Assembly (NCBI GenBank): GCA_008080685.1
Contig: VKGY01000006.1
Coordinates: 5,857-42,913 of the forward strand
DNA: 37,057 nt
Origin: Spirochaetota bacterium
GTDB lineage: Bacteria > Spirochaetota > Spirochaetia > Treponematales > Rectinemataceae
Direction of reading: 5' to 3'
This document shows, piece after piece, positions 17,370 through 19,424 of this stretch; the stretch's first letter is position 1; every line of letters begins with the position of its first letter. The notes beneath the pieces were generated by a model, which saw nothing but the letters and a program-made list of their open reading frames with translations, was not told the origin of the DNA and searched no databases. The translations under genes and the position numbers were made by a program.

Positions 17370-18194
17370 ATGAACAACGTAAATATATCCGAAACGGTGA
17401 CTGCTTTTTTCGCCCATGTGCTCAAGCCCGATTTTTGGGAGAAGGCAACGAGCCTGGCGATATCCATCGCCCTCATCCTTGTCATTTCCCGAATCCTCCA
17501 GGTATTGATCGGAAGAACGCTTAAAAAAACCATGCCCGAGCCCAGGACTCAGATGATACGGAAGGGTGTGCGGTACCTCGCCTATGTCATCATCGCCACC
17601 ACCCTGCTGAAAGCCTTCGGCGTCGATCTTTCCGCACTGCTGGGCGCCGCGGGAATCGCCGGAATAGCCATAGGCTTCGCAGCCCAGACTTCCATATCCA
17701 ACCTCATATCGGGCCTTTTTCTCATCTCGGAAAAACCCTTCGAACCCGGCAACTCGATCCAGGTCGGGGACATCACAGGCGTCGTACTGTCCGTTGACCC
17801 CCTGTCCGTAAAAATCCAGACCTTCGACAATCGCTTTGTCCGGATTCCGAACGAATCCATCATTAAAACAAACGTGATCAATATCTCCAGGTTCCCGATT
17901 CGGCGCCTCGATGTGATGGTTCCGGTGTCCTACAAATCCAATCTCGACAGAGTGAGAGGACTGCTCGCGGAGGTAGCCGCGAAAAACACCAATGTACTGG
18001 ATAATCCCGCCCCTCTTATTCTGATAGATAAGTTCGATGCTTCTGGCATAAATATCCTCTTCGGCGTCTGGTTCGAATCCTCGAACTTGATGGAAACCAA
18101 GAACTCGATAATCTCGGACATCCATTCTCGCTTTTCCCTTGAGGGAATCGCGATTCCATATCCCAAATTGGATGTGTTTGTTAAAGAAAAATAG
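17370..18194 (+). CDS. MscS-family small-conductance mechanosensitive channel
   Basis: LSALLGAAGIAGIAIGFAAQTSISNLISGLFLISEKPFEPGNSIQVGDITGVV matches the MscS TM3/beta-domain signature. Confidence 0.93.
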   Translation: MNNVNISETVTAFFAHVLKPDFWEKATSLAISIALILVISRILQVLIGRTLKKTMPEPRTQMIRKGVRYLAYVIIATTLLKAFGVDLSALLGAAGIAGIAIGFAAQTSISNLISGLFLISEKPFEPGNSIQVGDITGVVLSVDPLSVKIQTFDNRFVRIPNESIIKTNVINISRFPIRRLDVMVPVSYKSNLDRVRGLLAEVAAKNTNVLDNPAPLILIDKFDASGINILFGVWFESSNLMETKNSIISDIHSRFSLEGIAIPYPKLDVFVKEK

Positions 18195-18196
18195 GC

Positions 18197-18225
18197 TTGA
18201 AAATTATTGCTTCTTAGGCCATACT
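18197..18225 (+). promoter_or_regulatory. Candidate promoter for the corA leader
   Basis: TTGAAA - 17 nt - CATACT. Confidence 0.4.
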
Positions 18226-18246
18226 GGCGCTGTCATTAGAAGAGCC

Positions 18247-18266
18247 CGACCCCCGTGCGGGGGTCG
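18247..18266 (+). promoter_or_regulatory. Strong hairpin in the corA 5' leader (or U-tract-less end of the upstream unit)
   Basis: CGACCCCC-GTGC-GGGGGTCG, perfect 8-bp stem, not followed by a T run. Confidence 0.6.
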
Positions 18267-18291
18267 TAAAACCATGCAAGGAGGGAGCACC

Positions 18292-18387
18292 ATGTCCGAC
18301 ACGGACGGTGGGGGTAGTAGCGTACCTTACCATAGTAGTAGCACGCATTTAACCAAGCCGGCGCTTCTTCCGGGCTACCGCTTCTAG
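18292..18387 (+). CDS. Candidate 31-aa leader peptide (uORF) upstream of corA
   Basis: ATG...TAG encoding MSDTDGGGSSVPYHSSSTHLTKPALLPGYRF, preceded by a near-ideal SD AAGGAGGGAGCACC. Confidence 0.55.
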   Translation: MSDTDGGGSSVPYHSSSTHLTKPALLPGYRF

Positions 18388-18443
18388 CGCATCCGCGCAG
18401 ACGGTTTCTCCCGAAGACAGGCCGTTTTCAAGGAGAAATCGCC

Positions 18444-19424
18444 ATGACAATTATCCGGTCCCAAATCCATAAAGGCCTCGTTCAGAGCCAGTCCCTGGAA
18501 AAGGACTGCTGGGTGGATATCCGCGATGCGAGCAAGCAAGACTTGCTGAGATTGGAAAGAGAATTCGGGGTAGCTCCAGAACTCCTTGCCGACATCATGG
18601 ATATTGACGAACAGGCCCGGATAGAAAAGGAAGAAACCTATACCGCCCTGATCATGCGCCTGCCGGTATACGACGAGTCGTATGAAGTATCGTTTTTCAC
18701 CGTGCCCGTAGGGATTTTGCTCTTCAACGACAAAATCATCACCGTGTGTCAAAAGAGCAGCGACGTATTGGATGAAATGTCGGGGTCCAGGGTGAGGGAT
18801 CTCAATTTAAGGAACAAGAGTTCCTTTGTCCTCAATCTCATGGGAAGGGCCGCGCTAGTCTATCTGAAGGCCTTGAAGGAATTGAACAAAAAAACCGCGA
18901 TCATCGAGCGGGAGCTGCAGAAATCGGTGCGGAACAATGAGCTTGTCCAACTTCTATCGATTCAGAAATCCCTTGTGTTCTTCACCACCAGCATCAAGAC
19001 AAATGAGCTCTTGCTGGAAAAGCTTCAGAAATCGCCTCTTATCCACTTCAAGGAAGATGAGCAGGAACTCCTTGAGGATGTATTGACGGACAATAAGCAG
19101 GCAATCGAAATGGCGAACATCTACTCGTCCATCTTGACCGGCACGATGGATGCCTTCGCCAGCGTCATCTCCAACAACCTCAATATTGTGATGAAGCGGC
19201 TCACCATCGTGTCCATAGCTCTCATGATCCCTGCCATGGTATCAGGACTCTTTGGGATGAATGTACCCCTGCCGTTCCAAGACAGCCCCTTCGCCTTCGC
19301 GTGGATTGTCGGCCTCAGCCTTTCGGCCTCGATAATCGGTGCGACGGTCTTAGGCGATAGAAAGAGGAAAAAACTAATAACCAAGGCTTTGCCGTATACC
19401 CACAACCTCATGGTGCATCGCTAG
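18444..19424 (+). CDS. corA: CorA family magnesium/divalent-cation transporter
   Basis: C-terminal MVSGLFGMNVPLPF (GMN motif) with two C-terminal TMs; SD CAAGGAGAAATCGCC. Confidence 0.93.
   Translation: MTIIRSQIHKGLVQSQSLEKDCWVDIRDASKQDLLRLEREFGVAPELLADIMDIDEQARIEKEETYTALIMRLPVYDESYEVSFFTVPVGILLFNDKIITVCQKSSDVLDEMSGSRVRDLNLRNKSSFVLNLMGRAALVYLKALKELNKKTAIIERELQKSVRNNELVQLLSIQKSLVFFTTSIKTNELLLEKLQKSPLIHFKEDEQELLEDVLTDNKQAIEMANIYSSILTGTMDAFASVISNNLNIVMKRLTIVSIALMIPAMVSGLFGMNVPLPFQDSPFAFAWIVGLSLSASIIGATVLGDRKRKKLITKALPYTHNLMVHR

Follow-up and report, generated by a model that had tools for sequence, protein, structure and literature searches.

A very probable magnesium-responsive switch, not described before, in the corA leader of a spirochaete

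The window, by which we mean the whole 37,057-nt stretch of DNA that was analysed, comes from a spirochaete genome of 2.5 Mb assembled in 215 contigs. Among its genes are mscS (17370-18194; Pfam MS_channel, 3.3e-19) and corA, and the names that an earlier, sequence-only reading had given to these two are right. The gap between them is the corA leader, and the features that it contains or adjoins are as follows.

18197-18225, plus strand: putative promoter, TTGAAA-17-CATACT
18247-18266, plus strand: hairpin H0, 8 bp, CGACCCCC-GTGC-GGGGGTCG, some 20 nt downstream of the predicted start of transcription
18280-18288, plus strand: strand 1, the Shine-Dalgarno (SD) region of the uORF, GGAGGGAGC; pairs with strand 2
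18292-18387, plus strand: uORF of 31 aa, MSDTDGGGSSVPYHSSSTHLTKPALLPGYRF, with ATG at 18292 and stop codon at 18385-18387; a type-I spirochaete Mg2+-channel leader peptide
18295-18305, plus strand: hairpin P2, TCCG-ACA-CGGA, in codons 2-5
18313-18326, plus strand: hairpin P3, GGTA-GTAGCG-TACC, in codons 8-12
18363-18371, plus strand: strand 2, the uORF tail, GCTTCTTCC, coding for ...L-L-P; pairs with the uORF SD
18402-18411, plus strand: strand 3, the anti-SD, CGGTTTCTCC, beginning 15 nt past the uORF stop; pairs with strand 4
18432-18441, plus strand: strand 4, the corA SD region, GGAGAAATCG, occluded by strand 3
18444-19424, plus strand: corA, 326 aa (Pfam CorA, 3.9e-53), the Mg2+ channel gene regulated in the proposed model

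The sequence elements on which the sequence-only reading had built its candidate leader peptide are all in place: the promoter-like TTGAAA-17-CATACT, the 8-bp hairpin, the SD (GGAGG, 18280-18284), the ATG, the 31 codons and the 56 nt that separate the uORF stop from the corA ATG at 18444. So are the three stems that it drew within the uORF, GTCCG-ACA-CGGAC, GGTA...TACC and AGCCGG/CCGGGCT. It missed both the pairing of the uORF SD with the uORF tail and the sequestration of the corA SD, and the latter is the omission that matters most. The leader RNA as a whole folds to -95.1 kcal/mol, as against -76.4 +/- 4.7 kcal/mol for dinucleotide shuffles (z -4.0). The same genome has a second corA-like gene (L046), whose upstream region showed no leader of this family.

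Taken in the window alone, the promoter match is at chance level, with one site found and 1.1 expected; ahead of 49 homologous uORFs, sigma-70-like sites outscore shuffles (z 4.9). Several relatives have a hairpin of differing sequence at the position of H0, namely GGTCCCC-CTA-GGGGACC, GAGTTCCC-CTA-GGGAACTC, GAGCCTCC-TTCA-GGAGGCTC and GGACTTC-GCAT-GAAGTCC. Over 49 leaders the H0 hairpin reaches a Stouffer Z of 4.9, with individual p<0.05 in only 29%; it is clear in the window and in some relatives, and modest overall.

Several searches were made for related leaders. In a DNA search of 59 related genomes, four other genomes gave short, strong matches that fell exactly on the SD-start region of the uORF, with corA downstream at three of the loci (L002, L003 and L005) and mgtE at the fourth (L004), and with peptides beginning MSGTDGGGSSTPYHS, MSGSDGGGSSTPYHS, MSGTDGGGSSTPYPS and MSDSDGGGSIPRHR. 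A DNA pattern of the uORF start (SD, ATG and MS..DGGGS), scanned over one genome per species in about 85,000 species, matched 29 contigs, of which 28 are records of Treponema, Breznakiella or Spirochaetaceae/Spirochaetales and one (G010) belongs to the window's own family. The gene downstream is corA or mgtE wherever it can be read; one match (L093) is cut by the record edge, and the same locus is readable as L002. Finally, a covariance model (R1) built from 15 leaders and run over 200 genomes of a neighbouring family found a match in 57 of them, the weakest matches (E>0.01) including false positives such as L162 and L164. Every match of the model that has a uORF and a readable gene has corA or mgtE downstream.

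The merged set holds 92 copies, among which 50 type-I leaders (37 before corA and 13 before mgtE) are left once near-identical ones are removed, and the leader is conserved across at least three families of spirochaetes, all in one order. A regulatory leader peptide at a Mg2+ transporter gene, as the sequence-only reading had proposed, is strongly supported; the uORF is conserved in these 50 non-redundant leaders before corA or mgtE. That reading had staked its idea on conservation of the peptide or the RNA structure in homologous corA leaders; both turn out to be conserved, and the idea has come through. All statistics given here assume that the leaders left by a crude redundancy filter are independent, and since related leaders are not, the p-values are optimistic. 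A search of host-associated treponemes, covering 22 genomes and 10 mgtE loci, turned up no type-I leader. Only one of these organisms (G056) carries, under a strong SD before mgtE, a related-looking uORF, MPDGSSGNPASGQSLNAVPPPVNF (L182), which may belong to the family in diverged form, a run of Pro standing in place of the Asp residues.

The most conserved feature of the peptide is the early Asp residues to which the sequence-only reading had drawn attention. The type-I consensus is MS[DEG]x[DE]GGGS, and the core common to the family is M-x-[D/E]-x-[D/E]. Residue 5 is Asp or Glu in 49 of the 50 non-redundant type-I leaders and residue 3 in 48 (Gly in the others), a conservation that, like that of the rest of the N-terminus, is partly imposed by the search patterns and less so in members derived from the covariance model. 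Replacement of Asp by Glu occurs at both positions, as in MSETD (L159) and MSDAE (L150). The C-terminal part is variable, and the peptides range from 16 to 80 aa. The longest uORF, of 80 codons (L090/L130), overlaps the corA start in another frame, unlike all other leaders. No Pfam family matched the leader peptide at E<=1.

Five peptide subtypes occur before corA or mgtE, and all of them share an SD and an acidic-x-acidic core in the first codons (within the first 12 in type V), usually followed by Ser (an AGT codon) and often by Pro. Type I is MSDSDGGGS, before corA or mgtE. Type II is MPD[SP]DS...EPLSPFIRxPRRG, for example MPDSDS..EPLSPFIRxPRRG (genomes G001, G002, G014 and G016). Type III (MPDPDSCSRQDIPPFLRWPP; MPDPDSCSRQDIPPFLRWPPREPDRP) belongs to family f4, type IV begins MNDSDGPGSSQPPEPH and stands before mgtE, and type V, ...DTDSDPYGSK..., likewise precedes mgtE. 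Three matches to the type-IV pattern were set aside as chance: L171 and L172 yielded no uORF, and the start of L166 showed no Mg2+ transporter. In the type III leaders (L098-L106) the full-length peptide MPDPDSCSRQDIPPFLRWPPREPDRP is almost invariant, and in most of them a hairpin with a CCCGTACGGG core lies just upstream, its outer pairs differing between genomes. One genome (G420) has two type III copies on different contigs (L104 and L106), which may be an assembly effect because L104 breaks off at the contig end.

Evidence that the uORF is maintained as a reading frame comes from the placing of strand 2. In all 30 leaders where helix 1:2 could be placed strand 2 lies within the uORF, at a start-codon distance of 53 to 94 nt, and in 26 of the 30 it is in one reading frame (p 2e-9, relatedness ignored), from which it follows that the frame is kept. 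The type II block EPLSPFIRxPRRG points the same way and is constrained at the level of codons: its differences among four sequences are mostly synonymous (61%, as compared with 21% when columns are permuted; 0/3000). In type I, codons 2-9 show no significant synonymous excess (119/1500 permutations with column variability kept), so the N-terminal conservation of type I could be partly or wholly due to RNA. In codons 2, 5, 8 and 9 the wobble position hardly varies (TCC in 46/49, GAC in 48/49, AGT in 43/49), and together these two results argue that the 5' DNA of the uORF also serves RNA structure. Of the late Pro residues that the sequence-only reading had singled out, those that matter sit in pairing strand 2, where RNA pairing at least partly accounts for their conservation.

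Two helices between the numbered strands co-vary. Helix 1:2, between the uORF SD and the uORF tail, has a Stouffer Z of 11.5 against shuffles, and helix 3:4, between the anti-SD and the transporter SD, one of 11.2; when strands were swapped between leaders, neither helix was equalled in 5000 trials (0/5000 each). At p<0.05 helix 3:4 is present in 62% of leaders and in 13% of 101 control gene starts at the same loci (p 1.5e-9). It is weaker before mgtE, reaching p<0.05 in 31% of mgtE leaders as against 70% of corA leaders, and a clear 3:4 is absent from some leaders, such as L016 and several of those before mgtE. Across leaders the median distance from the uORF stop to strand 3 is 14.5 nt. The local hairpins are also maintained. 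The 4-bp stem of P2 is found in 48 of the 50 type-I leaders, with the compensatory form TCTG...CAGA in L083 and L150, and P3 co-varies (codons 6-9 by nt 30-50; swap test 1/5000). Because helix 1:2 encloses P2 and P3, the start codon lies in a multibranch junction. Helices 1:3 and 2:4 showed no co-variation in the swap test across leaders. A helix 2:3 gave 1/5000 in an initial swap test with overlapping windows; non-overlapping windows gave 284/5000 and 1134/5000, and with them the signal was gone.

The M-box riboswitch (ykoK leader) is a structured leader of Mg2+ transport genes, among them mgtE in other bacteria. The spirochaete leader resembles it in being structured and in preceding such genes, and differs from it in having a conserved uORF that, to judge from its sequence, is translated. 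Identity with the M-box was rejected, as cmscan of the leader and of ten related loci matched neither the M-box nor any other Rfam family at the gathering or E<=5 thresholds.

Closer parallels are found among leader peptides. MgtQ, a uORF in the mgtC-mgtB intergenic region of Salmonella, is experimentally proven: it has acidic codons 2 and 5, an AGGAGG SD and a hidden mgtB ribosome-binding site, its acidic nascent residues impede translation, its Asp2 and Glu5 codons are needed for mgtB translation, and mutation of its start codon lowers mgtB translation (PMC8092293). The spirochaete leader probably works most like MgtQ, by analogy and with no claim of homology. Both are short uORFs under a strong AGGAGG-type SD, upstream of a Mg2+ transporter gene and kept in relatives; both place acidic residues within the first five codons; in both a helix (1:2 here) overlaps the uORF; and in both the ribosome-binding site of the transporter is hidden, here in the 3:4 stem (strongly for corA, more weakly for mgtE), so that translational control is predicted. 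In contrast to MgtQ, strand 1 of the spirochaete leader is the uORF's own SD, and the mutually exclusive 2:3 helix that frees the ribosome-binding site, the heart of the MgtQ model, is unsupported. MgtQ is moreover a peptide of 8 aa encoded within an operon, before a P-type ATPase gene, whereas the spirochaete uORF encodes 16-80 aa in a 5' leader before genes for CorA or MgtE channels, and no similarity between the peptides is visible by eye.

CorL and MgtL, the leader peptides of enterobacterial corA and mgtA, also offer a likeness, with a uORF in a corA 5' leader, acidic and Pro residues and, possibly, overlapping alternative RNA structures (PMC11552253). They use Rho-dependent termination governed by stems A/B versus C (PMC11552253), whereas the conserved feature of the spirochaete leader, which appears to differ from them in sequence and occurs also before mgtE, is SD sequestration.

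Since the leader is common to corA and mgtE, which encode unrelated Mg2+ channels, its likely signal is Mg2+, given the established function of the two families. The Mg2+ response itself, and its sensing through destabilisation of the ribosome by acidic residues, are suggested by analogy with the enterobacterial systems. We favour, with moderate confidence, a reading in which the corA 5' leader is a cis-acting, Mg2+-responsive translational switch that combines an acidic leader peptide with two blocked ribosome-binding sites in series. When Mg2+ is plentiful, helices 1:2 and 3:4 would both be closed and corA would be off. At low Mg2+ the early Asp and Glu codons (and, in other subtypes, the Pro runs) would slow or abort elongation, and the RNA junction would loosen. 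A ribosome on the uORF would have to open 1:2 and would near strand 3 at the stop, strand 3 being within its reach from the last codons; uORF translation should therefore make it easier for the transporter SD to come free. Ribosomes moving along the uORF would part strand 3 from strand 4, and corA would be translated.

Alternative readings concern both the sensor and the sign of the coupling. A serious rival, though in our judgement an unlikely one, places the sensor in the RNA: the junction of P1 (1:2), P2 and P3 round the start codon would bind Mg2+ or a related ligand directly and gate initiation on the uORF, the peptide being only a relay to the transporter SD. The enclosure of the start codon by helix 1:2, the compensatory changes that preserve P2 and P3, and wobble positions in codons 2, 5, 8 and 9 that are more nearly fixed than the peptide alone explains would all suit such a sensor; the exchange of Asp for Glu and the kept reading frame point instead to translation and to the peptide, and by inspection subtypes II-V have the acidic core without the type-I P2 hairpin sequence. 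Of similarly low probability is control in the inverse sense, as for MgtL and CorL, in which efficient uORF translation would repress the transporter, by way of either Rho or a refolded RNA, and a low Mg2+ level would abort uORF translation and relieve the repression. MgtL has N-terminal acidic and Pro residues, as does the spirochaete peptide, and the poor efficiency with which MgtL is elongated at low Mg2+ raises mgtA expression; between corL translation and corA expression the relation is inverse (PMC11552253). Against this, the conserved feature at the spirochaete gene is SD sequestration rather than a terminator, and no alternative helix was found for a ribosome on the uORF to protect; for the latter reason positive coupling, in which transporter translation needs uORF translation as with MgtQ, seems somewhat the likelier of the two relations.

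A further explanation is that the leader is only a fragment of an upstream gene, translated constitutively, or an ORF that has come to stand under a good SD by chance, and that its conservation reflects close kinship. The variable C-terminal part and the range of 16-80 aa would fit, but the leader is conserved in at least three families and before two unrelated genes, its helices co-vary and its frame is kept, and we consider this explanation highly improbable. Going beyond the translational switch that we favour, the structured junction round the start codon and the acidic nascent peptide might together form one joint Mg2+ sensor of a new class, a portable module of CorA and MgtE across the whole spirochaete order; this we offer tentatively, as a possibility short of likely.

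Searches of the open-access literature brought up no earlier account of a spirochaete leader of this sort. Leader peptides of Mg2+ transporter genes are a known kind, which the present leader joins, and what is new is a spirochaete family of apparently unrelated sequence. The proven Mg2+-responsive leader peptides in the literature found are all enterobacterial, and the occurrence of an apparently unrelated family on corA and mgtE in spirochaetes suggests that acidic uORF sensors of Mg2+ arose more than once. The five subtypes, with their 16-80 aa, are natural variants for separating the roles of peptide and RNA. Many spirochaetes from the environment and from insect guts carry the leader, and its presence predicts that Mg2+ regulation occurs in termite-gut and environmental species, for which the literature searched held no report of such control. 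Elsewhere in the window, two tRNA genes lie side by side on the minus strand (2538-2690).
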